Virus record (IMG/VR): IMGVR_UViG_3300021335_001660
Span: 1-41,571 of that record
Source of the DNA: a virus
Length of the DNA stretch: 41,571 nucleotides
Direction: 5' to 3' (one strand)
Every line of letters starts with the position of its first letter. Positions within the stretch are counted from its first letter, which is position 1. The notes beneath the pieces are model-generated. The model worked only from the letters and a program-made list of their open reading frames with translations, was not told the DNA's origin and made no database searches. Made by a program: the position numbers and the translations under genes. Below, piece by piece: positions 2,225 to 30,805 of this stretch.

Positions 2225-2241
2225 AGTAAAAAGAGGTACAA

Positions 2242-12023: not shown

Positions 12024-12031
12024 TATTTATC
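12024..12031 (-). promoter_or_regulatory. T4-type late promoter motif before the fibre operon
   Basis: The minus strand reads GATAAATA 18 bases before the ATG at 12005, with GGAG between. It matches the T4 late core TATAAATA except at the first base. It would start the operon 12005 to 3496 and separates it from the tailoring cassette that ends at 12060. Confidence 0.6.
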
Positions 12032-12059: not shown

Positions 12060-12623
12060 TTATGTTAAATCTACTAGGCTATGAGCAAATTGATTTAGAT
12101 TATCAAATATTTCTGTTTGTTTTTTAAGGTCTTTGTTAGCAAATGTATTTAACTTCTTAGCTGTTTCAGCGCCATGCCCTGTACGTACTAATATAGGCTT
12201 TGCTTTGGCTTTTACAGCGGCTTTTAAGTCGCTAATTTTATCTCCTACATACACACCATTCTTCCAATCAACGCCAATTTCTGCCGCGGCACGCTTAAAC
12301 ATACCTGTATTAGGTTTAGCATATACGTCTTCTTTTAAGTTAGATGTGCTATAATACAATCCGTTGATACTCCTACAACCTACATTCCAAAGTAGTTCTA
12401 ACATATAATTGTTAACAATGTCAACGTCTACAGGATCCATTATACCCTTTGTTATGCCTGCTTGATTAGTCAAAATAACTACATCATAACCTTTGTTACG
12501 TATCATCTTAACTGCTTCTAAACTGCCTTCAATAGGTGTAAACTGTTCAGGCTTTGTTACATATGTACCTATATCTACATTTATTGTTCCGTCTCTATCT
12601 AGTCCTACTACTGGGGTACTCAT
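12060..12623 (-). CDS. gmhB: HAD-family sugar phosphatase, GmhB-like (heptose 1,7-bisphosphate 7-phosphatase)
   Basis: This is a HAD-superfamily phosphatase of the GmhB/histidinol-phosphatase branch. Counting from the chosen start, LDRDGTIN (8-15) gives the nucleophile Asp-9 and acid/base Asp-11, LTNQAGI is at 51-57, AKPNTGM gives motif III Lys-103, and VGDKISD (126-132) gives the metal-binding Asp residues. The family's zinc loop (Cys-x-His ... Cys-x-Cys before the Lys) is absent: the stretch YYSTSNLKEDVYAKP has no Cys or His. In the heptose route it would remove the C7 phosphate between the two HldE reactions. The start at 12623 is preferred over 12656 because GGAG lies eight bases upstream and the SGNH gene stops two bases before it. 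Presence of hldE and hldD in the window supports the heptose role; a different sugar phosphate remains possible. Confidence 0.78.
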   Translation of the reverse strand: MSTPVVGLDRDGTINVDIGTYVTKPEQFTPIEGSLEAVKMIRNKGYDVVILTNQAGITKGIMDPVDVDIVNNYMLELLWNVGCRSINGLYYSTSNLKEDVYAKPNTGMFKRAAAEIGVDWKNGVYVGDKISDLKAAVKAKAKPILVRTGHGAETAKKLNTFANKDLKKQTEIFDNLNQFAHSLVDLT

Positions 12624-12624
12624 T

Positions 12625-13491
12625 TTAGGGTCTCCATCTATCGTCTGACCAGCCATGTATTTCAGAGTTAAACCAGTCTAATTCGTAAAGTTTTATTGAT
12701 TCTTCAGCTGTTAGTATTTGCTTCCATTTGTCAACAAAGGTTAATGTTTCGTCATTTAATTTGCATATATGTTCTTGTACAAAGTCTGCCGCTTCATGTG
12801 TAAGTGGATGTACTTCAGGCTGATGCAAATGTAAAAGTTCTGGATTAGGATCAGGTATACTAGTTGGTCTTGTTTTAAAAAACTCGTCGTCAACTCCAAA
12901 GTCTAGTGCATTAAGTATTGGTGGACATGTAGTTTTAATATCATCTTTATACTTTTCTAATATAGCTCTTACATCTTCTAATTCTAAATACTTATTTTTA
13001 GTATTAAATTCTTTGCTAAGTTCGTCCCAACCTTCAGTAGGTTCTCTAAATCCTGTTGATATAACTTTACATCCTAAACTTTCTAATGCTTTATGTGTAC
13101 TGCTTATTAATGCACAATCACGCATTGTAGCCCAGGCCATGTCAGCCCATTGCCACATAGACTCGTAACGCCAACTGTTAAGTACAAAAGGAATATCTTG
13201 TCCTACTGTTGCTTTACTAAAGTTACCTGGAGTGTGCCAGCCCTTGCCCATATGGAATCTATCTTCTCTAAAAAAACTAGACCACTGTAATAAAATAATA
13301 TCATCTTTAGTAAACTTATGTTCAGTATGTGCTTCCCATAGCCGAGTTGAAATATATTGATTACCTGCACCACTACGTCCCCAGTTCTCTCCAACTGTAG
13401 CGCCTTCTTGTTTATAATGATGTATTAGGATGTCAGCCCATGTAGGATAAAAATATTGTGTTAAGCTACAGCCAAAGGCAAACGCTCTCAT
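12625..13491 (-). CDS. SGNH/GDSL-like hydrolase-fold protein
   Basis: A 288-residue protein starting FAFGCSLTQYFYPTWADIL, where GCSLT takes the place of the GDSL nucleophile block. It is followed by ENWGRSGAGNQYI (block II, Gly plus block-III-like Asn) and DDIILLQWSSFFREDRF. Near the C-terminus DPNPELLHLHQPEVHPLTHEA contains His residues suitable for the catalytic His of block V. The family includes esterases and O-acyltransferases acting on sugars, so acylation or deacylation of a glycan would fit the surrounding cassette. Catalysis is not certain, because the block V pair is not canonical. Its start overlaps the halogenase stop by four bases (ATGA), and its stop is two bases before gmhB, so it is translationally coupled on both sides. 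Confidence 0.65.
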   Translation of the reverse strand: MRAFAFGCSLTQYFYPTWADILIHHYKQEGATVGENWGRSGAGNQYISTRLWEAHTEHKFTKDDIILLQWSSFFREDRFHMGKGWHTPGNFSKATVGQDIPFVLNSWRYESMWQWADMAWATMRDCALISSTHKALESLGCKVISTGFREPTEGWDELSKEFNTKNKYLELEDVRAILEKYKDDIKTTCPPILNALDFGVDDEFFKTRPTSIPDPNPELLHLHQPEVHPLTHEAADFVQEHICKLNDETLTFVDKWKQILTAEESIKLYELDWFNSEIHGWSDDRWRP

Positions 13492-14945
13492 GTTAGTCTC
13501 CGCAACAATTGAAGCATTAATTTGTGCGGAATAGTTTTTGTTTTATCAAAATCTAATTTATGTTGTATTGATTGTTCAACATGATCCTTTGCACCTTGTG
13601 GAATTGTTTCGTATTGTTTTAAAATACTATCATTATCGAATAATCCTAGTCCATGCATTACTAATGCATAATTGTATTCGTTAAACAAAACTTTTTTAGT
13701 ATGTGTAGTCATGTCGTCAGCAATTGGCATTCTATATTTCCACATACGTAAGTTTTTATCTAAACTATCTGGCAAAGGTGTTTCTGATACTGCTTTCCAA
13801 AAGGGTGTATCTCTTCTATCAGTAATATAATGTAGTGCAATAAAGTCTCTAATATTATCCATAATAGCAGTGACTTCAAGATTGTATCTATTAATTGTTT
13901 CTTGATTACAATTTATAAGACGTTGTGCTAATAGAAATGTTTGATTTATACTACTACCAATACTGCTTGCTTCTAATGGTTCTACAAAACTTTGACTTAG
14001 TCCGATAGCACACACATTACCTATCCATGCTTTGTCCAGTGTACCTGGATCAAATTTAATATGTTTTGCTACTTCAACACCGTGTCCTAAATATTTTTCA
14101 ACTTCAGTATGTGCTTGTTCAGCTGTAATAAAATCACTATCAAATATATAACCATTACCTGTGCGTCCTTGAACAGGTATACGAAACATCCAACCAGCGT
14201 CCATTGCTTTTGCAAGTGTCCAAATTGGTATTTCATCTCCTTCGGGTGTAGGAAATACAATAGCTTCTTTCATTTTAAGATACTTACTATAACTTTGCCA
14301 CTCTGCACCAACTGCATTAATTAGTAAACGTCTAAATCCTGTGCAATCTATATAGAAGTCATAGTCATATACTTGCTTTTCGCCTTGTAAAGTTGATATT
14401 GTATTGCCTTCTAATACATTTACGTCTATAATTTCATCATCAATAACATCAATGCCTTTGTCTATTGCAAACTTAGTTAGAAAGTCATTTAATTTAGCAG
14501 TATTAAAATGATATTGTGCTACGCCAGTGTCATTAGGACGTTCGTCCATAAATTTATTAAATGGTGTTTCGTTATTCCACAGGTATTCACCTGTTAGTTC
14601 TCTAGCATCTACTTTTTCACCAATTAACTTAGCATATGCAATTGGTGCACTTAGTTGTTCAGCAACATATGGCTCATGAACACTTTGTAAGTATGGTTTT
14701 TCAGACCAGTCTTCAAACATAATACCAGATTTAAAACTAGCATCACATTCATTAATAAGTTCGCCTGTATGAATACCAACAAAATCCATAAAGGCAGACC
14801 AATGTTCTGTTGAACCTTCACCTACACCGATAGTTCCAATCTTGGTAGATCGAACTACATCAATTTTAAAGTTTGGAAAACTTGTTTTTAATATTAACGC
14901 TGACACAAAGCCTGCTGTGCCACCACCTACTACTGCTATTTTCAT
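13488..14945 (-). CDS. Tryptophan-halogenase-like flavoprotein, full length
   Basis: This is a complete 485-residue flavin-dependent halogenase-like protein. GGGTAG (7-12) binds FAD, GVGEGSTE (40-47) matches the GVGEAT block, and ASFKSGIMF carries Lys-72 at the place of PrnA catalytic Lys-79. SFVEPLEASSI contains Glu-325 at the place of PrnA Glu-346. The WxWxIP signature is altered to WMFRIP (252-257), whereas its paralogue at 3-1064 keeps WCWQIP. Members of this family use FADH2, chloride or bromide and oxygen to halogenate tryptophan or other aromatic groups; homologues in marine phages have no known substrate. It lies in the tailoring operon, eight bases after a prolyl-hydroxylase-like gene and overlapping the SGNH gene by four bases. 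A flavin reductase is not seen in the window and could come from the host. Confidence 0.88.
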   Translation of the reverse strand: MKIAVVGGGTAGFVSALILKTSFPNFKIDVVRSTKIGTIGVGEGSTEHWSAFMDFVGIHTGELINECDASFKSGIMFEDWSEKPYLQSVHEPYVAEQLSAPIAYAKLIGEKVDARELTGEYLWNNETPFNKFMDERPNDTGVAQYHFNTAKLNDFLTKFAIDKGIDVIDDEIIDVNVLEGNTISTLQGEKQVYDYDFYIDCTGFRRLLINAVGAEWQSYSKYLKMKEAIVFPTPEGDEIPIWTLAKAMDAGWMFRIPVQGRTGNGYIFDSDFITAEQAHTEVEKYLGHGVEVAKHIKFDPGTLDKAWIGNVCAIGLSQSFVEPLEASSIGSSINQTFLLAQRLINCNQETINRYNLEVTAIMDNIRDFIALHYITDRRDTPFWKAVSETPLPDSLDKNLRMWKYRMPIADDMTTHTKKVLFNEYNYALVMHGLGLFDNDSILKQYETIPQGAKDHVEQSIQHKLDFDKTKTIPHKLMLQLLRRLT

Positions 14946-14952
14946 TTTGTTC

Positions 14953-15534
14953 CTAGTGGTCTAATGTATACCATCCGCTTATAATATACTTAACGCCTTT
15001 GTAGATAGGATTGCCTCGATGTGGATGCGTAAACGATGTAGGAAAGATAGCCAATCTACCAGGAGCTGGTTTAATTTTATGTCCTTGGTAAAGAAATTCT
15101 GTTTCGCCGCCTTCTTCGACACCATTTAAATATAATGTGTATGCTAACACCCGTGTGCTTGTTGGTACATCTGCATTTTCGCAATGCCAAGCGTGGTATC
15201 CTTGGTGCGGTTTTGTTTTTTGAACACTCATACCTTTTGCTGTATGTTGAAATAATAATCCTAAGCTCTCATATTTCTTTTTATACTTTTCTAAATACGT
15301 TTTGTTTAAGGTTTCAAAGAAAAATTTACATAAATCTTCGTCTGCATGGTAATGACTATTGTGGTTTGCCCAATCCATGTATATACGTTCGTCTTGATTT
15401 CTATCAATACCTTGCTGTTGTATTGCAGTCATCTGCATTGAAGACAATTCTTCAAATCTTTTGATTACTTGTTTACAAAAGTCAATTGGATATACGTTAT
15501 CATATACTTCTACTCCATCAAAATTATCATCCAT
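14953..15534 (-). CDS. Fe(II)/2-oxoglutarate oxygenase, prolyl-4-hydroxylase type
   Basis: A 193-residue protein with the jelly-roll iron site of the P4H family: GYHAWHCEN gives His-117-x-Glu-119, FTHPHRGN gives the distal His-172, and VKYIISGW provides the Lys that binds 2-oxoglutarate. TLYLNGVEEGGETEFLYQG and GRLAIFPTSF between them are family-typical strands. Hydroxylation of a protein proline or other carbon is the expected chemistry; the target is unknown. It is one of five oxygenases of this type in the cassette. The gene lies between the DUF6445-like oxygenase (nine bases upstream) and the halogenase. GGAG precedes the ATG. Confidence 0.88.
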   Translation of the reverse strand: MDDNFDGVEVYDNVYPIDFCKQVIKRFEELSSMQMTAIQQQGIDRNQDERIYMDWANHNSHYHADEDLCKFFFETLNKTYLEKYKKKYESLGLLFQHTAKGMSVQKTKPHQGYHAWHCENADVPTSTRVLAYTLYLNGVEEGGETEFLYQGHKIKPAPGRLAIFPTSFTHPHRGNPIYKGVKYIISGWYTLDH

Positions 15535-15543
15535 GCTATTCTC

Positions 15544-16263
15544 CTATATAAAAAACTGCTGATTCATTCTATAGTTATCACCTACAAACATGTCTGGCTT
15601 AACATATGCAGTATGTAATACTGCCTGATTGTATAATACCATCCTATTAAACTGCATTGGAATCATCCCAATCATTTCCCAATCATGCGAACTATCAGTA
15701 ATATATTCTGTTACTGGAATTTTTCCTTCAACATCCATAGTAACATTAAAGTCATTGTTTACTACTTCATCGGTGTAAAAGTGTTTGCCGCCAAATTCAT
15801 AAAAACTTGTGCCACCCGCAGACTCATTTTCATTGTTTAAATAAATTGTACTAGCAAGATTCATACCTGACCGATTGTCTTGATGCGGTGCAAGAGGTGG
15901 TAAATTATCAGTTTGCATGACATTAATCATAAATGTTGCATTCATAAAACTTCTATCCATATATCCTGGTTCGTATTGATACATTATCTCCGGAAAAAAC
16001 TCCGATGCTAAGTGATGGAATGGTTGGGCTAAACTTGATAGCTCGTAAAATGCATTAATTCGTAGTGCAGGATTACCTCCTCTAATACGTCTATTAACAG
16101 ATGCCGGAATATCTAAAGCAAGTTGTCTTACTAAATGTGGATTTTTATAAAAGTTATCAACTACTAATACATGTACACCTGCTTTTCCAAACTTGTGTAA
16201 TCTTGTGTCGTAGTCTTCGTTGACAGCAAATGTTTCTTCTTCGTTAATTGTGTTTTTAATCAT
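15544..16263 (-). CDS. DUF6445-type Fe(II)/2OG oxygenase-like protein
   Basis: About 239 residues from the preferred start. PHQDNRSGMNLASTIYLNN carries an His-x-Asp pair, GGTSFYEFG is the following strand, LYNQAVLHTAYV gives the distal His, and NYRMNQQFF gives an Arg that could hold 2-oxoglutarate. This pattern fits the DUF6445 family, which often sits beside tryptophan-halogenase genes, as it does here (the halogenase is one gene away). The start at 16263 is chosen over 16293 because CGGAG stands six bases upstream; it overlaps the previous gene by eight bases. The oxidative chemistry is inferred from the fold; the substrate is unknown. Confidence 0.78.
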   Translation of the reverse strand: MIKNTINEEETFAVNEDYDTRLHKFGKAGVHVLVVDNFYKNPHLVRQLALDIPASVNRRIRGGNPALRINAFYELSSLAQPFHHLASEFFPEIMYQYEPGYMDRSFMNATFMINVMQTDNLPPLAPHQDNRSGMNLASTIYLNNENESAGGTSFYEFGGKHFYTDEVVNNDFNVTMDVEGKIPVTEYITDSSHDWEMIGMIPMQFNRMVLYNQAVLHTAYVKPDMFVGDNYRMNQQFFI

Positions 16264-16855
16264 CTTGTTTCTCCGATAGTACAAAGTTAGCACTAATTGT
16301 TGACCGTACTTGGTCGCTAGTATTGTTAGATACGTAATGTTCTAGGTTACTAGGAAAAAATACAATATCACCTTCTTCTAACGGAGGGGTTACTCTGTTA
16401 TTGTATCTAAATGGTTGTGTCGACAATGCAGGAAGGCCTGATTGATGGAAAAAGTCGTAGGCTTTGTTATAGAATACAAAGTTACCACTGTCTTTTGGTG
16501 TGTGCATCATATAAGCACAACTAATTTGTGCAACTCCTACATGGTTATGTACTTCTTGATACGACCCTGGCTTGTACTTGTTAAGCCAACACTCAATCCT
16601 ATAGTCTAATGTTAAGTCTATACTAAAGTTTTCAAGATACTCATTCAATCCAGTAATTGCTGATCTAATAAATGTTTTAAATGGTAAGTTTGAAGCATCA
16701 GGGTTACCATATGTAGTATCTACAGGACTGTACCAAGAAGGTACTTTACTGAAATACTCTTCTTTATCAAGTATATCGGCAAAGTCTTGTTGTACTTGCT
16801 CATGCTCCGGTAGTTTTATCTTATATACTGGAATTGAATATAAGTTTACCAGCAT
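16256..16855 (-). CDS. Fe(II)/2OG oxygenase, TIGR02466/2OG-FeII_Oxy_5-like
   Basis: A 199-residue protein with the layout of the 2OG-FeII_Oxy_5 family: an N-terminal region MLVNLYSIPVYKIKLP, the metal pair in EVHNHVGVAQISCAYMM, SGNFVFYN, then EGDIVFFPSNLEHYVSNN with the distal His and VRSTISANF with the 2-oxoglutarate-binding Arg. Its ATG overlaps the carbamoyltransferase stop by one base (TAATG), so the two are translationally coupled. The family occurs widely in marine bacteria and phages without a known substrate. Confidence 0.82.
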   Translation of the reverse strand: MLVNLYSIPVYKIKLPEHEQVQQDFADILDKEEYFSKVPSWYSPVDTTYGNPDASNLPFKTFIRSAITGLNEYLENFSIDLTLDYRIECWLNKYKPGSYQEVHNHVGVAQISCAYMMHTPKDSGNFVFYNKAYDFFHQSGLPALSTQPFRYNNRVTPPLEEGDIVFFPSNLEHYVSNNTSDQVRSTISANFVLSEKQDD

Positions 16856-18684
16856 TAGTTCTTCATTTCAATTAGTTTGCCGTACTCAGGTAGGTAACAA
16901 TATTCCATCTCACTATTATAAAGTGTACGTACAGCATCATCTAGAGTTTCAACTAGTGGTTCACCACCTAAATTAAAACTAGTATTAAAAATAATTGGAA
17001 CACTTGTTTGTTTATAGAACTCTTCGATAAGCTCATAGTAGTGTTTATTCTGTTCTTTGGTTACAGTTTGAATTCTACAAGTGCCATCAACATGAATAAT
17101 GCTTGGGATCTTTTCTGCAATACCTTCTTGACAATCCATTGCATACATCATATGTGGTGTTTGTTCTAATCCACGCATGTCAAACCATTCATGTGCATGC
17201 TCTAACATAATTGTTCCAGCGAAGGGTCTAAAATACTCTCTACGCTTTACTTTGTTTACGTAATCCTTGCCGTCTTCGAACGTTGGGTCAAACAATATAC
17301 TTCTGTTACCTAATGCACGTGGTCCGTTTTCACTTTTACCTTGAAACATAGTAACAATATTTTTGTTTCTAATTAATTCTACAACTAATTCTTTATTAGC
17401 GTCAGTAATTGTAGCACCATACTTGTTTGCAGTGTCTTCAATTTGCTCATTAGTATATGTATACTCAAAACCTTCGTAGATTGTTTCTGCGTAAGGACGT
17501 ATAGTTTTATCTTTTGTAGTTTGATGATATACTAACATAGCCGCACCCATTGCTGTACCTGCATCATTACTAACAGGTTCAACGTATAACTTAATGCCTT
17601 CTTTGTTTAATTTATCGAGGTACCAGTAGTTTGCAACACAGTTAAGTGCATAGCCGCCACTTAGTACTACGTTTTTATTACCGGACATTTCAACTGCTTT
17701 AAAAATAAGGTTTAATACTTCTTGTTGTGATCCTTCTTGTACTGCATATGCTAAGTCTCTACGATTTTCTTGTGTAGTTAGGTCAGTATTACTATTAATC
17801 GTATCTTGTGATGTTTCTAAATACTCGTATTTTGCTTCATTTACTAATGCCGCATTTGGATATGTAGGAATAACAATGTTTCTATCACTTGTACGCCACT
17901 TACCACCATTGCCGTCAGTATAAATCGGAGGAATATTTAAATTTTTCTTACCATATGGAGCAAGCCCCATAGTTTTACCTGCTTCAATAGGTTGAAATCC
18001 ACAATATTGTGTTACTGCTTCGTATGCCTTAACAATACCTGCACTATCATCTAGTACAAGTTCGTGAAATCCTTCTTCACCTTCACGGTCTGATGGAATA
18101 TATGGAATACGTGTTCCCGGAAAAGGTCCGTTTCCTCCTTGGTGCTTATATAAAGTTTTAAAGTTATCAGGATATGCACAATTAAAGATACTTTCACATT
18201 CCCATGACATATATTCTTCGTTAAATACACCCATGTTAATGTTCATTGGTATAAATGTGCCTGCTCCATCAACAATAACACTTACTGCTGATTCAAATCC
18301 TGAACGATAAAATGCACATGCCGCATGTAATTTATGATGTATATGACTTAGGTCAATTACTTGCCTATGATTGTGTTGGCCATCTGCTGTGTAAGCATTA
18401 TCGTTTCTATCAATTAATCCTAGTTTCCTTGCTAGTCCTGTATACATATCACCACCGCTAAAGTCAATTCTGCTCGACTCTGCTAATGGTTGTGTATGTG
18501 CTACTACAAGATAATCTAATTTATCTGTATAATCAAGGAATTTAATCATTGAGGCAAGTGGTCCGCCGTCATATTTTTTACGAGTTAGACGTTCTTCTTC
18601 GATTGAAAATACAATTTCACCATCTTTTAATAATACGGCGCCGCCGTTGTGTCCTCTTGTGATTGCTCCAATCCACTGTGTCAT
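16855..18684 (-). CDS. O-carbamoyltransferase, NodU/CmcH family
   Basis: A 609-residue protein with the two-domain layout of O-carbamoyltransferases. The N-terminal Kae1-like domain (about 1-375) has GHNGGAVLLKDGEIVFSIEEERL, the metal-binding HIHHKLHAACAF and VSVIVDGAG segments, and VLSGGYALNCVANY. The C-terminal carbamoyl-transfer domain (about 400-609) has ENGPRALGNRSILFDP and FNTSFNLGGEPLVET. Family members use carbamoyl phosphate and ATP to carbamoylate hydroxyl groups on sugars or antibiotics. In this cassette a sugar hydroxyl on a glycan is a natural candidate, though modified bases or protein residues cannot be excluded. It is preceded by AAGGAAA and a 79-base gap from the upstream gene that holds a small hairpin, so a further promoter may lie there. 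It overlaps the next gene by one base. Confidence 0.93.
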   Translation of the reverse strand: MTQWIGAITRGHNGGAVLLKDGEIVFSIEEERLTRKKYDGGPLASMIKFLDYTDKLDYLVVAHTQPLAESSRIDFSGGDMYTGLARKLGLIDRNDNAYTADGQHNHRQVIDLSHIHHKLHAACAFYRSGFESAVSVIVDGAGTFIPMNINMGVFNEEYMSWECESIFNCAYPDNFKTLYKHQGGNGPFPGTRIPYIPSDREGEEGFHELVLDDSAGIVKAYEAVTQYCGFQPIEAGKTMGLAPYGKKNLNIPPIYTDGNGGKWRTSDRNIVIPTYPNAALVNEAKYEYLETSQDTINSNTDLTTQENRRDLAYAVQEGSQQEVLNLIFKAVEMSGNKNVVLSGGYALNCVANYWYLDKLNKEGIKLYVEPVSNDAGTAMGAAMLVYHQTTKDKTIRPYAETIYEGFEYTYTNEQIEDTANKYGATITDANKELVVELIRNKNIVTMFQGKSENGPRALGNRSILFDPTFEDGKDYVNKVKRREYFRPFAGTIMLEHAHEWFDMRGLEQTPHMMYAMDCQEGIAEKIPSIIHVDGTCRIQTVTKEQNKHYYELIEEFYKQTSVPIIFNTSFNLGGEPLVETLDDAVRTLYNSEMEYCYLPEYGKLIEMKN

Positions 18685-18724
18685 ATTGTTTCCTTTTATG
18701 TTTCTTTATATACTATATGTATTT

Positions 18725-18741
18725 GCAATCCCAGTGATTGC
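18725..18741 (-). other. Short inverted repeat upstream of the carbamoyltransferase gene
   Basis: GCAATC and GATTGC form a perfect six-base stem around a five-base loop in the only sizeable gap (18685-18763) within the tailoring cassette. No T-run follows on the minus strand, so it is not a standard terminator. AT-rich TATA-like sequence lies between it and the gene start. It might be an operator, an mRNA processing site or chance. Confidence 0.3.
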
Positions 18742-18763
18742 TGACAAGAACTGAACCTTATCA

Positions 18764-19369
18764 TTAGTTAATTTCTACATCGTATGTAAAGTCAACTACA
18801 AATACCTTTCTTTCTTCTAATGTAGGATATACTCCATGGTAAACTTTACCGTCCATAACTACTACATCGCCTGCTATACATTTTATCATATCACTTACTA
18901 GTTCACCTGTAACAGGATTCATAGTAATTGCTTTTAATTTACCATTTAATGGTGTTACTGTGCTTACTGATATTGTGTTTAAGAACATAACACATGTCAT
19001 TGTGCGTTGTCCTCTATCTTCATGTGTGTGCAATCCTGAGAAAGTATTCTCAGGGTATGTTAGCCACCAACATTTCTTAAATTTTACGTTTTTAAATTGA
19101 AACTTTTCTATAGATTTTTTAATCCACTCTAAATATATTCCTTGTTGGTCTACATTATACGGATATGAAAAATCATCATCGTTATATTGTATAATTGCAC
19201 CACCGTAATCTACATGCGACTTAGGCGGATTATCAAATAGTTCTAAAAATTTATTATAGTCTTGATACTTGTCTTTGCTAATCCAATAGTCGGGTATACG
19301 TCCATTAAAGCATAACCAGAAAAAGTCTTTATCACCTTGATATGCAGTATCTAAAGTTTCTATATCCAT
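18764..19369 (-). CDS. Fe(II)/2OG oxygenase-like protein, paralogue A
   Basis: A 201-residue protein with the iron-site pattern SGLHTHEDRG (His-x-His/Glu), a long linker of beta strands and a distal His in VVMDGKVYHGVYPTLEERKVFVVDF, whose Arg/Lys would bind 2-oxoglutarate. It is clearly homologous to the 200-residue protein at 19938-20540 (shared KKxWxxxYPxxxFSGLHxH, DGKVxHGxYPTLExRxVFVVDF and an N-terminal SxxxHVDYG block). The two flank the sulfotransferase gene, so a duplication with an intervening or inserted gene is likely. Its ATG overlaps the sulfotransferase stop by one base. The fold assignment is moderate to good; the substrate is unknown. Confidence 0.75.
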   Translation of the reverse strand: MDIETLDTAYQGDKDFFWLCFNGRIPDYWISKDKYQDYNKFLELFDNPPKSHVDYGGAIIQYNDDDFSYPYNVDQQGIYLEWIKKSIEKFQFKNVKFKKCWWLTYPENTFSGLHTHEDRGQRTMTCVMFLNTISVSTVTPLNGKLKAITMNPVTGELVSDMIKCIAGDVVVMDGKVYHGVYPTLEERKVFVVDFTYDVEIN

Positions 19370-19941
19370 TATTTTACACTTTCTGATTTGTTTACATATG
19401 GAAATGGCGAACTAGGAATGTCTCTGCCTAAAAAATTACAAAGCACTTTCCAACCGTCACCGTCACAAATGTTCATTTCTAAATATGTATTTGGTTTATC
19501 ATTAAAAAAATCTCGTATTTCGTTCTTTTTCTTAAAATAACGATCTACTTTACGCTTAAATGTGTTATGCTCTTGTTTAGTATCACGCTGAAATTTTCCT
19601 TGCGATCTTTCCATAGTTATTACACTTTTAATCCAATCTTCTGGAGCACGTATAGTAAGTATAAATTTGCTATTAGGATATTGATTATAAAGTTCTTTAT
19701 AGTACTTCTCTCCGTTAAAGTCACTAAAACCTTGATATATATGATCAAGTGTATGAAAGTAATTTAACCCTTGCTCTTTGTTTATATTTGCAACGACTTC
19801 TAGCTCTTTGTTGTTGTTTTTATGCCATCCAGATCCGTCTACAGAAAAGTGTATACTAGGAATTCCTAAGATGTTTAATGCATTAGTTAACGATGTAGTT
19901 CCTGATCTATTAAACCCGATATTAAATACATATTGGTTCAT
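19369..19941 (-). CDS. Sulfotransferase-family protein
   Basis: A 190-residue P-loop-like sulfotransferase. GFNRSGTTSLTNALNILG (9-26) is the 5'-phosphosulfate loop for PAPS, and KFILTIRAPEDWIKSV (92-107) is the 3'-phosphate-binding strand and helix with Arg and Ser. FLGRDIPSSPFPYVN near the C-terminus is the end block typical of the Sulfotransfer_4-like group. It would move sulfate from PAPS to a hydroxyl or amine of a sugar or small molecule; PAPS must come from the host. It is slightly shorter than usual family members (about 200-250), but all motifs are present. It starts with a four-base overlap (ATGA) with the upstream oxygenase and ends with a one-base overlap with the downstream one. 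Confidence 0.85.
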   Translation of the reverse strand: MNQYVFNIGFNRSGTTSLTNALNILGIPSIHFSVDGSGWHKNNNKELEVVANINKEQGLNYFHTLDHIYQGFSDFNGEKYYKELYNQYPNSKFILTIRAPEDWIKSVITMERSQGKFQRDTKQEHNTFKRKVDRYFKKKNEIRDFFNDKPNTYLEMNICDGDGWKVLCNFLGRDIPSSPFPYVNKSESVK

Positions 19942-20540
19942 ATTACACTTTCATATTCAAAGTCTACAACAAATACATGTCTATCTTCTAGTGTAGGGTA
20001 AGATCCGTGCCATACTTTACCATCTAAGATTACCAACTTACCTTCAATAGGCTTATGTGTTAAGTAAGTAATTTCACTGTCTGTTGGCTGTAGCGTAGTT
20101 AAACATCCTGCTAAAGGATATTCTACACTTGGCTTTGGAGTGTCTAAAAATAACACACTAGTTAGTTGTTTTCCAGGTTGATGCGAATGTAATCCGCTAT
20201 ATGCACCTGGTGGATATTTTACACCCCATGCTTTTTTAAAATCTTTAACACGGATAGGCAAATTTTGTAACTGAAACTTAATAAACGCTAAGTACTCTTC
20301 TTTTGGATCTATATCTGTAGGGTAAGACATATCCTTTTTGTAATACAAAGTACCGTTACCATAGTCGACATGTCGTTCGCTAGAAGTATCAAATAAATTT
20401 AAAAACTTTTTATATCCCGGATAAAATAAATCATCTACAACCCATGTATCAAGTGTTTGTATTTTTTCTACAGTAGGATCCATTACAGTTGTGATACCAC
20501 TTAAAAAACTATCAGGTGAAGTAAAGTTAGGATCGCTCAT
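19938..20540 (-). CDS. Fe(II)/2OG oxygenase-like protein, paralogue B
   Basis: A 200-residue homologue of the protein at 18764-19369. It keeps the iron-site segment SGLHSHQPGKQLTSVLFLD and the distal His/Arg segment LVILDGKVWHGSYPTLEDRH, and it starts with a Ser/Thr/Asp-rich N-terminal 15 residues. Here the residue two after the second His is Pro rather than the Asp of paralogue A, so the exact metal ligand set differs from the classical His-x-Asp. Its ATG comes directly after the glycosyltransferase stop with only a weak ribosome-binding site, suggesting translational coupling. Likely an oxygenase acting on the same kind of substrate; not proven. Confidence 0.75.
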   Translation of the reverse strand: MSDPNFTSPDSFLSGITTVMDPTVEKIQTLDTWVVDDLFYPGYKKFLNLFDTSSERHVDYGNGTLYYKKDMSYPTDIDPKEEYLAFIKFQLQNLPIRVKDFKKAWGVKYPPGAYSGLHSHQPGKQLTSVLFLDTPKPSVEYPLAGCLTTLQPTDSEITYLTHKPIEGKLVILDGKVWHGSYPTLEDRHVFVVDFEYESVI

Positions 20541-20541
20541 T

Positions 20542-21603
20542 TTACTGCCCAGTATGACCTAAGATTTTTGCTTGTTGTTTATTGCCGTGTGATGCACCAT
20601 CTGCATGTACTACTCCATGGGTTGGACAAACTTCGCCTTGTTCTTGTTGCGGTTTGTAGTTTCCGGTATAACTTCTCGGTTTCCCCAAACGCTTGCGAGC
20701 ACTTGTAATAATTTTTTTAAAACTTTCATCATCTAACTCCATAACTTCATCGTTAAATCGTTCAATTGAATCTTCCATTGTAAGTCTAATAGGACTAAAC
20801 TTACGCTTACCTTCTCCTAAGTCAATAATATCAAAGTCAGGAGAATTAGGATAAGAAATATTAATAGGATATGTACTGCCAATAACACTTGTGCATGTTG
20901 TACCTAGTGCTTTTGCCATATGTTGTCCTAGACTATCACAACCGATAAAATGATCTGCAATTTGAATAACGCTTGACCAAACTCTTACATCTGGAATTTG
21001 TGGAACTGCTACAGGAACTTTAGTATTTTCTTCAACTACAACAGGGAATTCGCTCATTAAAATTACAGCATAATCATCACGTAAGTCTTTACAAATGCGT
21101 ATAACATCATTTAAATGAAAACTTCTACTAGTACCATCAATTACAAAGTCGCCCATGTTTTCAGCTGTACGACCAAATGGTTGAAACACCACTACTTTGT
21201 CTTTGCCTGTAACTGCTTTAATTTCTTCAACAACTTTATACCCTTGTACAAGCTCATGTTTGTTCATATGTATAGTTGGGTCAGGTAAATCTCTTATACC
21301 TTTGTTATTAATTGCAATATCAAATGCTTGTGCTAAACTACACTTTTGATTATAATATTCCCAAATCCGATAAGGTTCTGGAGAGTAACAATCTCTGTCT
21401 TTAATGTAATCTTTAAATAGGTTTTTATGCCAATTATCATATGCTAATTCATGTAGTTGTGGATGTCCTTTATAAAAGTCCATTCCGCCTTCACAAACAA
21501 TAATAAAGTCTTGATCTGTTTCGTAGAGTTTTTCAAACGCTGGAATACTTGCAACTGTTCTGCCTGCTCCACCGTTGATAAAATATGCTTTTTTGCGTTC
21601 CAA
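20542..21603 (-). CDS. GT9-like glycosyltransferase (heptosyltransferase-type)
   Basis: A 353-residue protein with the GT-B layout of GT9 heptosyltransferases. The N-terminal domain starts KKAYFINGGAGRTVASIPAFEKL, comparable to the GDxxxxxPxxxxL start of the family. The C-terminal domain has VVVFQPFGRTAEN (137-149) in place of the IxPG block, and IADHFIGCDSLGQHMAKALG (215-234), which matches the GT9 hallmark of a DSG-x-x-H-x-A-x-ALG type. A Gln/His/Gly-rich tail (about 315-353) is unusual. GT9 enzymes transfer heptose from ADP-heptose, the product of hldE and hldD seen at 1064-3072. The start codon is TTG, with AGGAG six bases upstream and no in-frame ATG nearby. It is the first gene of the cassette, 24 bases after an AATAAATA motif. 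Family confidence is moderate. Confidence 0.7.
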   Translation of the reverse strand: MERKKAYFINGGAGRTVASIPAFEKLYETDQDFIIVCEGGMDFYKGHPQLHELAYDNWHKNLFKDYIKDRDCYSPEPYRIWEYYNQKCSLAQAFDIAINNKGIRDLPDPTIHMNKHELVQGYKVVEEIKAVTGKDKVVVFQPFGRTAENMGDFVIDGTSRSFHLNDVIRICKDLRDDYAVILMSEFPVVVEENTKVPVAVPQIPDVRVWSSVIQIADHFIGCDSLGQHMAKALGTTCTSVIGSTYPINISYPNSPDFDIIDLGEGKRKFSPIRLTMEDSIERFNDEVMELDDESFKKIITSARKRLGKPRSYTGNYKPQQEQGEVCPTHGVVHADGASHGNKQQAKILGHTGQ

Positions 21604-21626: not shown

Positions 21627-21634
21627 TATTTATT
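21627..21634 (-). promoter_or_regulatory. T4-type late promoter motif before the tailoring cassette
   Basis: AATAAATA stands on the minus strand about 23 bases before the TTG start at 21603, followed by AGGAG. With the terminator at 21671-21694 just upstream, this marks the start of a separate transcription unit running to 12060. Confidence 0.55.
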
Positions 21635-21670: not shown

Positions 21671-21694
21671 TAAAAAAAGGGCCTAATGGCCCTT
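21671..21694 (-). terminator. Rho-independent terminator after the tail-chaperone-like gene
   Basis: AAGGGCC and GGCCCTT form a seven-base stem around the four-base loop ATTA; on the minus strand the stem is followed by a run of T residues (21678-21672). It lies 26 bases after the stop of the gene ending at 21720 and is the clearest terminator in the window. Confidence 0.88.
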
Positions 21695-21719: not shown

Positions 21720-22511
21720 TTATTTTTTACCTGCAACCTTTTGAGCGGCAACTTCTACGTCAACGGCAAATGCACCTTCTCTATACGGATCTGCAGGATC
21801 TGCTGATGTGTCTGGATCACGCATATCTTTTGGTACAGTTGGAAACATCATAACTGCTTGCCACGGCTCATATCCAGCCGCTTGTGCCCAAGCTGGTAAA
21901 TCTCTTAGTCTTTGTCTATAATCTTTCCAAGTCTGTTGGATAGCTTCAGGAGCGTCTGTCTGTCCAACTTTAGCGTCAGTATCGTGCAATGCCGAATCTC
22001 TAACATCTCTAAGATCTTGCCATGTTAGGTCCATTTTTGCACCTGTAGCTTCCCAATCATGGATCCCAATATTAAATGTTTCTGTAGCAAAATCATATGT
22101 GATATTTTGTTCGTCGTATACATCACGCGGTTCTAATTCATCTGTGTACTCTACATCCATATAACCGTCTGGAGCGTCCCAAAGAACTTTCCATTCTCTT
22201 TGACGTCTTAGTAATACACCTTCTTCTTTACCATCATCATTACCGATTTCGCAAAGTAAAGGGTTTTCTTTACAATCAACTGTTATTCTTGTTATGTCTT
22301 TGCCGGCTGGACGTTCTAAATCCATTTTTTCCCATAGACACCAACCAGATTCTTTTTGGTAGTTGTCTGTATCTGCAGGGTCATTGCCTATTTCAAACGT
22401 TAAAAACTCAGGGCCTTTATAAGTAAAGGTGCCGGTTCTTCCGTTTTCAAAACTATTTTTTCTCCACTCGTCCCAAATTGGGTAAGTAAATGTTTTTTCA
22501 ATTTTTCTCAT
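21720..22511 (-). CDS. Tail-fibre assembly-chaperone-like protein, 263 residues
   Basis: An acidic, Trp-rich protein with no signal peptide. Its C-terminal third holds QQTWKDYRQRLRDLPAWAQ followed by AVMMFPTVPKDMRDPD, which resembles the W-x2-YRQ-LR-x-LP ... FP-x-x-P pattern of phage tail-assembly chaperones. The N-terminal two thirds (MRKIEKTFTYPIWDEWRKNS and a Gly/Asp-rich middle) are not recognised. It follows the three Cys/Gly-rich genes, as adhesin chaperones often follow adhesin genes in T-even phages. It has its own GATAAATA late promoter and GGAG, and it ends in a strong terminator. The chaperone role is inferred from motif and context. Confidence 0.62.
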   Translation of the reverse strand: MRKIEKTFTYPIWDEWRKNSFENGRTGTFTYKGPEFLTFEIGNDPADTDNYQKESGWCLWEKMDLERPAGKDITRITVDCKENPLLCEIGNDDGKEEGVLLRRQREWKVLWDAPDGYMDVEYTDELEPRDVYDEQNITYDFATETFNIGIHDWEATGAKMDLTWQDLRDVRDSALHDTDAKVGQTDAPEAIQQTWKDYRQRLRDLPAWAQAAGYEPWQAVMMFPTVPKDMRDPDTSADPADPYREGAFAVDVEVAAQKVAGKK

Positions 22512-22530: not shown

Positions 22531-22538
22531 TATTTATC
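22531..22538 (-). promoter_or_regulatory. T4-type late promoter motif before the chaperone-like gene
   Basis: GATAAATA on the minus strand lies about 20 bases before the ATG at 22511, followed by TTTTAGGAG. The same motif, position and order are found at 12024 and 30797. Confidence 0.58.
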
Positions 22539-22540
22539 AT

Positions 22541-23380
22541 TTACATGAATGTTATTCGAACAACGCCTGAGCCACCTTGTCCAGATCCACCTGCACAGCA
22601 CTTAGCCCAGTTATTACAATATGAACTAACGCCTGGCATTCCACCGCCTGCTGGCCACTCAATGTGACAACCGCAGTTACACCATGCTTCGTTAGTTACT
22701 GATACTGTCATTTTACCAATTAATGGAGGTTGTCCTGATCCTGAATACTGATACACACAGTGACAGTAACCATGTCCTGGTTCCCATCCTGTTGTTCCCA
22801 TCATTCCAAAATCTGCTCCAAAAATTCCACATCTATTACAGTTTTCACAACCAAAGTGAGTGTGTCTTGGACCCCATGCGTCTCCATTACACATCCATCC
22901 ACCACAGCCGCCTACTGTACAAAAATTACTTAGATTATGTCCGTTTACATAACTCTTACAACCCATACCTGCACCACAAGTATGTGCTTTACCACATGGC
23001 CAAGCACCACCAGCACATACACTGTACTGACATCCTGGAGATGTAGCAATAGTCTTAGACCCGTAATTGCCTCCTGCGCCGCCAATTGCAAATGAACAAC
23101 AATTACAACATGTATGTCCTGGGCCTCCGCCGCCGCCTGACCAAATTTCAAATGTTACTGTACTTACACCATCTGGTACACACCAGTAACAGCATTTTCC
23201 GTTTGCTTGTTGACAACAACCTGATTGTCTAGCACACTGATGACATTGCATGCCACGTTCATTGTAAATCCATTGTACGCCCATGTTGTTACCATTACCG
23301 TGTGCGATATCAGCGGATGTAATTGTTCCGTTAACTATACTGTCATTTGCTACTTTTTTATAACTTGCGTATGTTGCCAT
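22541..23380 (-). CDS. Cys/Gly-rich putative adhesin, copy 1
   Basis: 279 residues with 30 cysteines (about 11 percent) and many glycines. A short N-terminal region (MATYASYKKV) is followed by paired-Cys motifs (CHQC, CC, CCYWC), a VTFEIWSGGGGGPGHTCCNCC core, and the well-kept block HTCGAGMGCKSYVNGHNLSNFC. It ends with WCNCGCHIEWPAGGG and CCAGGSGQGGSGVVRITFM. The VPxxVxxVTFEIWGGGGGG frame is that of Gly-rich fibre-tip proteins in marine phages; the load of cysteines is unusual and suggests metal binding or disulfide knots. It is one of three tandem paralogues. The segment about 195-235 differs strongly between copies. No signal peptide is seen. Role as a receptor-binding tip is inferred. Confidence 0.75.
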   Translation of the reverse strand: MATYASYKKVANDSIVNGTITSADIAHGNGNNMGVQWIYNERGMQCHQCARQSGCCQQANGKCCYWCVPDGVSTVTFEIWSGGGGGPGHTCCNCCSFAIGGAGGNYGSKTIATSPGCQYSVCAGGAWPCGKAHTCGAGMGCKSYVNGHNLSNFCTVGGCGGWMCNGDAWGPRHTHFGCENCNRCGIFGADFGMMGTTGWEPGHGYCHCVYQYSGSGQPPLIGKMTVSVTNEAWCNCGCHIEWPAGGGMPGVSSYCNNWAKCCAGGSGQGGSGVVRITFM

Positions 23381-24826
23381 TTCTTATCCTTACTATGCGA
23401 ATGTTATTCTTACCATGCCTGAACCACCCATATTGCCACCTGCACAACATTTTGCCCAGTTACCACAATATGAACTCTGTCCTGTTTGTCCGCCACCTGC
23501 AGGCCAGTTAACATAACATGCACAGTTACACCACGCTTCTGCGTTTGCACCTGCACTGTGTTTACCTACAAAAGGTGCTGATCCTGACATTCCCCAGTCT
23601 GCTGATTTACATTGACATCCACCGTGTCCACCTGTTACACCGGTTGATCCCATAATTCCAAAGTCTGCTCCAAAAATTCCACAAATTAAACAGTTAGCAC
23701 ATGTTTGTGTATGGTTTGGTCCCCATGCACCACCGTTACACATCCAACCCGGACATCCACCTACTGTACAAAAATTACTTAGGTTGTGACCATTAACATA
23801 ACTTTTACATCCCATACCTGCTACACAAGTATGTGATTTACTACAACGCCATGTTCCGCCTGCACAAATTGAATATGTACAACCTGGACACGTACTAATA
23901 GTTTTTACTGCATAGTTACCACCTGATCCACCTGCTGAGTGTGTACAGTTGTTACAGCAAGTAGCGCCTGCGCCACCGCCTCCACCTGACCAAATTTCGA
24001 ATACTACTTTTGAAGTGTTAGCTGGAACTGTCCAGTAACAACACTTACCATTTGCTTGTTCACAACAGTCGCCAGCATCTGAACATGCATGACATTTAAT
24101 GCCACGTTCATTATAGACCCACCAAACACAATATTTGTTACCAGCACCTGCACCTAGTTTAGCCGCCGTAATACTATTGTCTTGGAAGTTGTCTGCTGTT
24201 AATGTTTTATAACTTGCGTATGTTGCCATTATTTTCTTTCCTTATACAAACGTTATTTTTACTATGCCAGATCCACCTTGACCTGAACCACCTGCACAAC
24301 ATTTTGCCCAGTTACCACAGTAACTAGATGTTCCTGGAACGCCGCCACCTGCTGGCCAAACAATATGACATCCACAAGCACACCATGCTTCGTTAGTAGT
24401 TGTACCACCGTAAGTTCCAATACCTGCGGCCGCTCCTGTCCAACCTGTTTGTCCGTGACATCTACAAGTTGTTGTACCTGCTTTAATACCCATACCGCCC
24501 ATCATTCCAAAGTCGTGTCCAAAAATTCCACAAATCAAACAGTTAGCACAGTTTGTTACAGCATGTCTTTGACCCCATGCATCTCCATTACACATCCAAC
24601 CGCCACAAGCACCAGTAACACAAAAGTTACTTAGATTATGACCATTAACATAAGATTTACATCCCATGCCTGCTGAACATGTATGTGATTTACCACATGG
24701 CCAACTACCGCCAGCACAAACACTATATTGACATCCTGGATTAGTGTTGATTGTTTTAATTGCATAGTTTCCGCCTGCGCCGCCAATTGCAAATGAACAA
24801 CAATTACAACATGTATGTCCTGGGCC
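23073..24826 (-). repeat. 53-base exact match between adhesin copies 1 and 3
   Basis: Positions 23073-23125 and 24774-24826 are identical over 53 bases, while flanking codons differ. They encode the CCNCCSFAIGGAG region. Copy 2, which lies between, does not share the exact match. Only the two end segments are repeated, not the interval between them. Confidence 0.8.
23393..24229 (-). CDS. Cys/Gly-rich putative adhesin, copy 2
   Basis: 278 residues with 30 cysteines. It shares the frame of its neighbours: NERGIKCHAC, CCYW, VVFEIWSGGGGG, ATCCNNC, MGCKSYVNGHNLSNFCTVGGC, GIFGADFGIMG, and the end block NWAKCCAGGNMGGSGMVRITFA. It is the most different of the three: it has TVPANTSK in place of CVPDxV, and a different stretch STGVTGGHGGCQCKSADWGM before NAEAWCNCAC. 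GGAAAG and AGGAT ribosome-binding sites precede the copies, which are separated by only 11-12 bases, so all three are read as one unit. Divergence in fixed windows between invariant cysteines is what selection on a receptor-binding loop would leave; function is not proven. Confidence 0.75.
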   Translation of the reverse strand: MATYASYKTLTADNFQDNSITAAKLGAGAGNKYCVWWVYNERGIKCHACSDAGDCCEQANGKCCYWTVPANTSKVVFEIWSGGGGGAGATCCNNCTHSAGGSGGNYAVKTISTCPGCTYSICAGGTWRCSKSHTCVAGMGCKSYVNGHNLSNFCTVGGCPGWMCNGGAWGPNHTQTCANCLICGIFGADFGIMGSTGVTGGHGGCQCKSADWGMSGSAPFVGKHSAGANAEAWCNCACYVNWPAGGGQTGQSSYCGNWAKCCAGGNMGGSGMVRITFA

Positions 24827-25081
24827 GCCACCTCCGCCGCCCCAGATTTCAAATGTTACTTTGTAAACATTGTCTGGTACACACCAGTAACAACATCTAC
24901 CATTTGCCTGTTGACAACAGCCACTATGTCTAGCACACATATGGCATTGCATACCGCGTTCGTTGAACACCCATTGTGTTCTACGACAAGCGCCAGCTCC
25001 TGGTTGCAGTTTAGATCTAGTAATAGATCCATCTGGTATACCTTCTGACGTAACCTTTTTATAACTTGCGTATGATGCCAT
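24242..25081 (-). CDS. Cys/Gly-rich putative adhesin, copy 3
   Basis: 279 residues with about 31 cysteines, closest to copy 1. Both have CVPDxVxxVTFEIW, GPGHTCCNCCSFAIGGAGGNY and NPGC/SPGCQYSVCAGG. An exact 53-base DNA match with copy 1 (24774-24826 and 23073-23125) points to recent duplication or gene conversion. Its private segment is GIKAGTTTCRCHGQTGWTGAAA. The final domain ends CCAGGSGQGGSGIVKITFV. Transcription is probably from the CTAAATA motif at 25918, through the two small genes before it. Confidence 0.75.
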   Translation of the reverse strand: MASYASYKKVTSEGIPDGSITRSKLQPGAGACRRTQWVFNERGMQCHMCARHSGCCQQANGRCCYWCVPDNVYKVTFEIWGGGGGGPGHTCCNCCSFAIGGAGGNYAIKTINTNPGCQYSVCAGGSWPCGKSHTCSAGMGCKSYVNGHNLSNFCVTGACGGWMCNGDAWGQRHAVTNCANCLICGIFGHDFGMMGGMGIKAGTTTCRCHGQTGWTGAAAGIGTYGGTTTNEAWCACGCHIVWPAGGGVPGTSSYCGNWAKCCAGGSGQGGSGIVKITFV

Positions 25082-30769: not shown

Positions 30770-30796
30770 TTTTTGCTCCGTTCTTGATATTATACA

Positions 30797-30804
30797 TATT
30801 TATC
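30797..30804 (-). promoter_or_regulatory. T4-type late promoter motif before the 1613-residue gene
   Basis: GATAAATA on the minus strand about 27 bases before the ATG at 30769, followed by a TATAAT and ACGGAG. It lies in the short gap after the 1860-residue gene. Confidence 0.55.
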
Positions 30805-30805
30805 A

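Follow-up and report, generated by a model that had tools for sequence, protein, structure and literature searches.

Several described systems share parts with the locus analysed here, an 11-gene cassette on the minus strand (positions 12060–21603) of the complete 41,571-base virus record IMGVR_UViG_3300021335_001660. We refer to this record as the window; it is probably a fragment of a larger genome, because relatives reach 262 kb. The bacterial autotransporter heptosyltransferases (BAHTs) TibC and AAH act on TibA and AIDA-I, and TibC heptosylates adhesins using ADP-heptose (PMC4358343; here and below, PMC citations refer to extracts of the articles). Carbamoylated heptose has a precedent in WapO of Pseudomonas lipopolysaccharide (LPS) (PMC8005017). 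In the cyanophage Pam3, gp24 is a receptor-recognising fibre that is assembled by the chaperone gp25 (PMC9608196), and virion proteins of mycobacteriophages carry glycans on the capsid and tail tube (PMC12619734). Related enzymes have been given metabolic roles: a radical SAM module of Campylobacter phages was interpreted as serving host metabolism (PMC2853527), cyanophage 2-oxoglutarate (2OG) oxygenases were read as controlling nitrogen signalling (PMC3037559), and auxiliary metabolic genes are said to include halogenases and rfaE (PMC10452541). Among the matches listed in the open-licence PMC literature there was no description of such an island as an adhesin modification system, and a subscription paper could hold one.

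We consider it somewhat better than an even bet (probability roughly 0.55) that the cassette is a late-expressed island that modifies the phage's own tail-fibre adhesins with carbamoyl-heptose and side-chain marks. A sequence-only reading of the window had suggested modification of virion adhesins or of a phage-made glycan; judging from sequence and structure models, the glycan-related genes resemble a pathway for heptose. This pathway, the likeness of the adhesins to the Pam3 fibre, and the presence of the glycosyltransferase, carbamoyltransferase and heptose gene set in long-sequenced cyanophages are our additions to that reading.

The glycosyltransferase of the cassette (GT9) is like TibC in its GT-B fold (Z 16.4 over 259 residues). 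TibC and AAH have ADP-heptose as donor and an adhesin as acceptor, both of which we only infer for GT9, and the cassette differs from them in its many additional tailoring enzymes. Membership of the BAHT family was rejected: the four-cysteine iron finger is absent, with only C37 and C326 invariant and C222 nearly so in 27 sequences, and so is the N-terminal beta-barrel (TibC 1–97), with model residues 1–310 aligning to TibC 91–391. Though outside the family, GT9 could by analogy work like one of its members. The adhesins of the window are like Pam3 gp24 in being glycine-rich and in being followed by a chaperone gene; modification enzymes go unmentioned in the extracts on Pam3 (PMC9608196), and the window has three cysteine-rich paralogues.

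Mycobacteriophage virion glycosylation concerns the capsid and tail tube, as opposed to the adhesins proposed here. We know of no heptose, carbamoyl and oxygenase set in that system. The extracts of PMC12619734 contain no match for 2OG, halogenase, heptos or carbamoyl. The cyanophage genes T4-GC 302–308 (P-SSM2, S-SSM7 and S-CAM3) come with a GT9 homologue (45–60%), a carbamoyltransferase and heptose genes as in the window; they have been annotated singly as hypothetical or metabolic, and HldE is split into two genes, unlike in the window. The P-SSM2 and S-CAM3 stretches also lack most of the window's oxygenases, the halogenase and the SGNH gene. The interchangeable module of Campylobacter phages CP220 and CPt10 comprises radical SAM genes, an amidinotransferase related to that of one of our loci (L076; 25.9% identity) and sugar-transferase domains, but unlike the window its stretch has neither a GT9 nor a carbamoyltransferase annotated. 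The CP220 module (L251, 8774–15805) has a baseplate-lysozyme gene some 3 kb away and may be an analogous island.

The cassette and its late-type motifs

All 11 open reading frames (ORFs) that the sequence-only reading had assigned to the cassette are present on the minus strand at the coordinates given, tightly packed with intergenic gaps of −38 to +79 nt. From 5′ to 3′ they encode GT9, the oxygenase OxE, a sulfotransferase, OxD, a carbamoyltransferase, OxC, OxB, OxA, a halogenase homologue (hal1), an SGNH-like protein and a GmhB-like phosphatase. The earlier gene identities hold, but two of the listed starts may lie too far upstream: OxB, listed from GTG 16293, probably begins ten codons later at ATG 16263, where M11 is invariant in alignment A4, and the GmhB-like gene may start at the 12th codon of its listed ORF.

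The sequence NATAAATA, which we take to be the late promoter of such phages, occurs exactly six times in the window, on the minus strand only. Four of these copies lie 18–27 nt before gene starts, namely those of a 1613-aa fibre gene, the tail-fibre assembly chaperone (motif at 22531–22538), GT9 and f170, which encodes a 170-aa protein downstream of the cassette, where a gene for a gp9/10-like baseplate protein also lies. PMC3037559 gives the late sequence of T4.

Relatives were compared in two sets: set A (L002–L081), the best 80 of 497 relatives with GT9 as query, and set B (L186–L229), 44 loci obtained with a P-SSM2-type query. Loci overlap and near-identical contigs are included, so that counts are not independent; the 80 loci of set A hold 44 distinct full-length GT9 proteins. 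Counting each distinct upstream region of set A once, we find the motif ahead of GT9 in 37 of 42, of the chaperone gene in 32 of 33, of f170 in 23 of 23 and of the 1613-aa fibre gene in 18 of 20, for a background of 2.7% per 121-nt window. It was found less regularly before the gp10-like gene (6/10) and f108 (6/26), and the only inner cassette genes with the motif are the halogenase (1/30) and OxB (1/37) genes. The earlier claim that a late-type motif at 21627 opens a single unit is thus borne out: by its sequence, the cassette looks like one late transcription unit, and its expression would be late. Other signals were at chance level, including one-mismatch TATAAATA sites (104 found, 121 expected), sigma-70 promoters (62 found, 64.9 expected) and terminator-like sites in the window (9 found, 9.2 expected), a kind of site that Table 1 lists for the interval between the chaperone gene and GT9.

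Upstream of GT9 lie the chaperone gene, three adhesin genes and the 1613-aa fibre gene, whose product matches S-SSM7 and P-SSM2 proteins annotated as phage tail fiber-like. A medium-confidence model of adhesin 2 (predicted local distance difference test score (pLDDT) 69.6) matches the Pam3 fibre (Z 16.9 and 16.2); the Bxb1 tail tip (Z 11.2) comes next, and then ALK with its glycine-rich domain (Z 9.4). On this model, the window adhesins resemble the Pam3 fibre, with its TNF-like and glycine-rich fold and its own chaperone. The adhesins (22541–25081, minus strand) are about 11% cysteine, with 20 cysteine columns invariant over 43 aligned adhesins, a richness that is unusual for cytoplasm-assembled proteins. 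The 1613-aa protein and a fibre-like protein of 1860 aa (together within 25928–36388, minus strand) have seven CBM5/12 stretches apiece, and a 1238-aa protein (37111–40827) has a Laminin_G_3 domain, hinting at polysaccharide binding.

The phage, a marine one, is T4-like, with a gp9/10 N-terminal domain encoded in the window and gp23 in six of seven related records. For one relative of 262 kb, the major head protein gp23 is by sequence closest, among the 8 records listed, to jumbo phages of heterotrophs, the nearest being Sinorhizobium phage Phosso (71.5%), with Vibrio phage 2.275.O, XaC1 and PA5oct as further neighbours. PF00124 (psbA/psbD) had no match in the 14 related virus records that were searched for pathway and photosystem genes, all of which are possibly fragments. 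On these two grounds a cyanophage origin was not adopted. By gene content, the same kind of island does occur in true cyanophages.

Conservation and exchange in related phages

With the adhesins as query, 51 of 71 loci extend more than 2.2 kb past the last adhesin, and every one of the 51 carries both the chaperone gene and GT9, which substantiates the proposed link of the cassette to adhesin genes. The 20 shorter loci comprise 12 with neither gene, 6 with the chaperone gene only and 2 with both. Where the contig leaves room, a carbamoyltransferase gene follows within 4 kb of GT9 in 75/75 loci of set A and 35/36 of set B. The 1.5 kb upstream of GT9 include a gene of adhesin or chaperone type in 59/60 set A and 34/42 set B loci. 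The 45 loci of set A that reach from the chaperone gene to f170 all share one gene order, with single genes present or absent. Heptose genes are also frequent: at least one is present in 38 of the 44 set B loci, GmhB in 58 of the 80 set A stretches fetched, and heptose genes lie in the same island in L072 and L081 and, by annotation, in Sf-FS3.

The arrangement is present in three cultured cyanophages, S-SSM7 (Lipsvirus), P-SSM2 (Salacisavirus) and S-CAM3 (Charybdisvirus), in which fibre-like and adhesin-like genes precede GT9 and the carbamoyltransferase gene. Next come genes for a nucleotidyltransferase, a kinase, a small "phosphoheptose isomerase", a cupin and an epimerase. Among these isolates a PF16778 chaperone was identified in S-SSM7 only, and S-CAM3 gives a weak BLAST match (2e-4). 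The proteins annotated as phosphoheptose isomerases (P-SSM2, L118 18024–18368; S-SSM7, L117 22708–23043; S-CAM3, L119 17930–18250) have no SIS domain and give weak HAD-type matches in P-SSM2 and S-CAM3 and none in S-SSM7; from their sequences, the annotation is doubtful.

The tailoring enzymes are exchanged around this core. Loci L073, L075 and L076 keep the order fibre, adhesins, chaperone, GT9, oxygenase and carbamoyltransferase and then differ in carrying radical SAM enzymes together with another oxygenase and an amidinotransferase-like protein. L080 has a radical SAM gene (74% to that of L076) and no OxE-type oxygenase between GT9 and carbamoyltransferase; the radical SAM labels were confirmed for L073, L075 and L080. 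L078 has an FkbM methyltransferase and a second carbamoyltransferase-like gene. Judged by gene content, the pattern is a fixed GT9 and carbamoyltransferase core, usually with heptose genes, to which replaceable tailoring enzymes are added; radical SAM enzymes, FkbM, oxygenases, halogenase and sulfotransferase are those exchanged.

Some further arrangements were seen. In one lineage an extra gene for a 131-aa protein with a hydrophobic N-terminus lies between OxA and the halogenase (L026, 14741–15136), and in 8 of the 44 P-SSM2-type loci (L220–L223, L225–L227 and L229) the carbamoyltransferase lies between two copies of GT9. S-TIM4, from another cyanophage genus, has a fibre gene, a Gly_rich_2 protein (1.6e-13), a carbamoyltransferase, a 2OG oxygenase and a leprecan-like gene in one stretch (L253, 4434–17590). 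An N4-like phage of Vibrio and a phage of Aeromonas encode distant GT9-like proteins (L231, 8998–9732, and L230, 8998–9921); in the Vibrio phage the gene lies between tail-fibre and tail genes. GT9 relatives were also found on contigs of metagenome-assembled genomes (MAGs) binned as Euryarchaeota and Neomarinimicrobiota (L238–L242), perhaps misbinned phage DNA. A bacterial origin of GT9 was considered and set aside, as a single scan of genome contigs returned five loci, all on MAG contigs and suspected to be binned phage.

The putative heptose route and the tailoring enzymes

We used an AlphaFold model (27-sequence alignment, pLDDT 75.5) to assess the fold of GT9. The best structure match is 3tov, a GT9 structure (Z 20.7, 276 aligned, 3.8 Å), and WaaF (Z 18.4) and WaaC (Z 16.6) also match, as do three plant NDH-PSI chains (Z 17.2–18.0); the next rows reach at most 11.7. 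Foldseek gives moderate TM-scores, with TMq no higher than 0.55. On this model the enzyme has the GT9/heptosyltransferase GT-B fold. The kinship is barely visible to sequence profiles: the sequence gives no Pfam match up to E 0.1, 17.2 bits to the heptosyltransferase III model TIGR02201 (cut-off 170.2) and, by phmmer against PDB sequences, a best E of 0.23; hhalign to a WaaC/WaaF/WaaU profile aligned 35 columns locally (E 0.048), the global alignment being uninformative.

Candidate enzymes for making the sugar donor are encoded in the window. The GmhB-like phosphatase closes the cassette; its DxD, K and D residues are kept in 35/35 distinct sequences, it scores 92.9 bits against TIGR00213 (cut-off 149.6) and it aligns with Escherichia coli GmhB, minus the latter's Cys/His stretch. 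The HldE-like protein also matches rfaE domain II (156 bits, cut-off 181.5), and E. coli motifs align in it and in the HldD-like epimerase (YxxxK and GHKG in the latter). An HldE-like match is present in all 14 related records, in one only as a nucleotidyltransferase-like piece. Because the glycosyltransferase has a heptosyltransferase fold, a GmhB-like gene lies in the cassette, and HldE- and HldD-like genes and a cupin gene lie at 1064–3499, the sugar is probably ADP-heptose, as far as sequence and model go. Homologues of the cupin adjoin the kinase and epimerase genes in the three isolates, and we would guess it to be a candidate for the missing isomerase step; alternatively, isomerisation of sedoheptulose-7-phosphate may be supplied by the host.

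The cassette enzymes look catalytically active, because catalytic and metal-binding residues, whose roles are general background, are invariant or nearly so; conservation was counted over 30 to 62 distinct homologues per family. Ratios of non-synonymous to synonymous substitution (dN/dS) of 0.008–0.237, from three relatives for each of 10 of the 11 genes, indicate purifying selection; they are rough, with several dS above 1 (saturated) and one value not computable. The sulfotransferase stood outside this comparison, having no divergent relative, and is found in 2 of the 80 GT9 loci of set A, both 100% identical to the window.

HxxxH is the metal motif of carbamoyltransferases. The window enzyme has both domains, its HHxxH (H116/H117/H120) is present in 62/62 sequences, and it matches PDB entry 7xb6 (6.2e-54), GdmN, TobZ and a novobiocin enzyme. 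Among the oxygenases, the HxD/E...H...R/K pattern is found in OxA (HxE, H and K in 30/30) and OxB (HxD, H and R in 45/45), whereas OxC (44/44), OxD (invariant across the 25 sequences of alignment A5) and OxE (30/30) carry HxH, H and R instead. OxA matches a PDB prolyl 4-hydroxylase (1.5e-5); a collagen-type substrate for it was discarded, the longest G-x-y run being only 5 in the 31 listed window proteins. The halogenase homologue hal1 matches solved halogenases down to 1.2e-60 and VirX1 at 3.3e-41. It shares with VirX1 and the tryptophan halogenases the family, the lysine and the glutamate, and GxGxxG, K72 and E325 are kept in 42/42 sequences; it departs from the WxW of characterised halogenases in having WxF, F replacing the second W of WxWxIP in 42/42. 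A second homologue, hal2 (window 3–1064, plus strand), is clipped by the window edge, has a canonical WCWQIP and lies upstream of the HldE, epimerase and cupin genes. The SGNH-like protein matched nothing in Pfam, PHROG or NCBIfam and, below E 0.5, no PDB sequence; comparing PDB sequences with profiles of SGNH, of DUF6445 and of the adhesins yielded little.

Table 1. Genes and signals of the cassette and of related parts of the window, with the evidence for each assignment.
Feature	Position	Strand	Evidence
HldE-like heptose kinase/adenylyltransferase	1064–2212	+	PRK11316 HldE 276 bits (cut-off 521)
HldD-like ADP-heptose 6-epimerase	2242–3072	+	TIGR02197 216 bits (cut-off 274.6)
Cupin travelling with heptose genes	3059–3499	+	Weak Cupin_2 and WbuC-type matches
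Late-type motif GATAAATA opening next unit	12024–12031	−	18 nt before f170
GmhB-like HAD phosphatase (D-glycero-manno-heptose-1,7-bisphosphate 7-phosphatase type)	12060–12656	−	NCBIfam PRK08942.1 135.7 bits (cut-off 178)
SGNH-hydrolase-like protein	12625–13491	−	Motif only: S9 and N44 in 36/36, H228 in 35/36
Flavin-dependent (tryptophan-type) halogenase homologue hal1	13488–14945	−	PF04820 3e-98
2OG-Fe(II) oxygenase OxA, prolyl-4-hydroxylase type	14953–15534	−	PF13640 (2OG-FeII_Oxy_3) 3.1e-13
DUF6445 2OG-type oxygenase OxB	15544–16293	−	PF20043 1.7e-21
2OG-Fe(II) oxygenase OxC	16256–16855	−	PF13759 (2OG-FeII_Oxy_5) 1.5e-15
NodU/TobZ-type O-carbamoyltransferase	16855–18684	−	PF16861 3.1e-57, PF02543 6.2e-25
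2OG-type oxygenase OxD, OxE paralogue	18764–19369	−	phrog_81 8.2e-8
Sulfotransferase, rare insertion	19369–19941	−	PF17784 (Sulfotransfer_4) 7.5e-31
2OG-type oxygenase OxE	19938–20540	−	phrog_81 2.9e-9
GT9-fold glycosyltransferase, heptosyltransferase-like	20542–21603	−	phrog_8954 3.9e-141, 472 bits
Late-type promoter motif AATAAATA of cassette	21627–21634	−	23 nt before GT9 start
Intrinsic-terminator-like hairpin, chaperone/GT9 interval	21677–21694	−	7-bp stem, 5 GC pairs, then T run
Tail-fibre assembly chaperone	21720–22511	−	PF16778 7.4e-7; PHROG tail fibre assembly families
Glycine/cysteine-rich fibre adhesin 1	22541–23380	−	phrog_4205 1.3e-33; 64% to adhesin 2
Glycine/cysteine-rich fibre adhesin 2	23393–24229	−	Pam3 fibre 7ypx Z 16.9, 191 residues
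Glycine/cysteine-rich fibre adhesin 3	24242–25081	−	62% to adhesin 2, paralogue
1613-aa fibre protein, upstream of adhesins	25928–30769	−	PF02839 9.2e-41, seven CBM5/12 stretches

Weighing the explanations

In the mechanism that we propose as the most economical, HldE, GmhB and the HldD-like epimerase would make ADP-glycero-manno-heptose, the first isomerisation falling to the host or the cupin. The GT9-fold enzyme would transfer the heptose to newly made fibre or adhesin protein held by its chaperone, and the TobZ/NodU-type enzyme would then carbamoylate the adhesin-bound heptose. Further marks, probably on side chains, would come from the halogenase and from the 2OG oxygenases, of which one is of prolyl-4-hydroxylase type, with the sulfotransferase as an optional extra decoration. 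In this scheme we infer the expression, the sugar actually made, the order of steps and, above all, the tail adhesins as acceptor, which is its weak link. A protein target is favoured by the SPASM radical SAM and prolyl-4-hydroxylase-type enzymes, for which peptides are common substrates.

Several observations weigh against this explanation. Membership of a common late module might by itself account for the linkage to adhesins, and in 8 of the 42 set B loci the 1.5 kb upstream of GT9 contain no gene recognised as adhesin-type. The upstream matches in set B rest on P-SSM2 queries, which resemble the window adhesins weakly and only locally (about 38% in a stretch of 105 residues), and the P-SSM2 gene used as chaperone query (L118, 12094–12771) has no Pfam match and is no longer labelled a chaperone. 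In Sf-CH8 other glycosyltransferases adjoin the heptose genes, and the 17 kb examined contain no annotated tail gene. Within the window, the HldE and epimerase genes are on the opposite strand and without a late motif, and HldE, epimerase and cupin together were found in only 2 of the 80 stretches of set A. HldE, HldD and GmhB are the best NCBIfam models for their proteins, but all three scores fall below the curated cut-offs, which makes these proteins divergent members, and the SIS-type isomerase GmhA (PF13580) gave no match in the 14 related records, possibly fragments, or among the window genes. WaaC uses a catalytic Asp, and the invariant N-terminal GGAGR motif of GT9 places R15 at that position when the N-termini are aligned by eye, so that the chemistry of GT9 may differ.

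The same enzymes could instead modify a host surface glycan such as LPS late in infection, blocking re-adsorption of progeny to debris or excluding other phages. The LPS enzymes WaaC and WaaF match the GT9 fold as well as TibC does, and carbamoyl-heptose is known from the Pseudomonas LPS core. However, the cassette has no flippase or convincing membrane protein (no convincing membrane helix was seen, with a top hydropathy peak of 1.70 in the FAD-type halogenase and at most 1.24 elsewhere), the late-type motif lies beside fibre genes, and a prolyl-4-hydroxylase-like oxygenase, a halogenase and, in variants of the island, SPASM radical SAM enzymes are unusual in glycan synthesis. We regard modification of host glycans as unlikely.

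A role as auxiliary metabolic genes, in which the oxygenases consume 2-oxoglutarate and steer host nitrogen control and the halogenase and carbamoyltransferase act on host metabolites, follows the proposal published for cyanophages (PMC3037559) and the analogous reading of the radical SAM and amidinotransferase module of Campylobacter phages (PMC2853527). We find this decidedly unlikely for a late-type unit with a fixed place after the adhesins and chaperone, in which oxygenases of different families adjoin with the active site conserved in each. Cyanobacterial NtcA control may moreover not apply, given the lack of psbA/psbD-type genes in the possibly fragmentary related records.

The cassette might instead belong to a biosynthetic cluster with which the phage makes a soluble small molecule or glycan, on a scaffold that the host or another part of the phage genome provides. 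The mix of enzymes resembles antibiotic tailoring, and the carbamoyltransferase matches GdmN, TobZ and the novobiocin enzyme. No scaffold synthase family matched in Pfam scans of the 31 listed window genes, which agrees with the earlier statement that polyketide synthases and non-ribosomal peptide synthetases are lacking from this record, itself probably a fragment, and the linkage to fibre genes is tighter than a diffusible product needs; we give this explanation only a slim chance. DNA hypermodification with a decorated sugar is highly improbable, for although phage glycosyltransferases that modify DNA are known (PMC12619734), the late-type unit beside the fibres, the heptosyltransferase-type fold and the lack of any recognised base-modifying partner among the window genes scanned speak against it.

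If modification of the fibre adhesins is the correct explanation, the carbamoyltransferase, tryptophan halogenase, 2OG oxygenases and rfaE that are counted as auxiliary metabolic genes of cyanophages would be virion-modification genes, at least in these phages. Because the tailoring genes are exchangeable, the fibre surface would vary in its chemistry and not in its sequence alone. Viruses would then have a means, so far little explored, of altering their grip on the host, and host range and adsorption could hinge on chemistry that is invisible to analysis of fibre sequences. The enzymes would also be a source of tools to heptosylate, carbamoylate, hydroxylate or halogenate proteins. The cultured isolates S-SSM7, P-SSM2 and S-CAM1/3 make this reading directly testable by mass spectrometry. 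More tentatively, many marine T4-like phages may chemically diversify their receptor-binding fibres with exchangeable tailoring sets similar to those of ribosomally synthesised and post-translationally modified peptides (RiPPs). Such sets, with a heptosyl/carbamoyl core plus oxygenases, halogenases, sulfotransferase and radical SAM enzymes, might then, as a possibility held just as tentatively, form a layer of host-range or stability control outside the fibre sequence.

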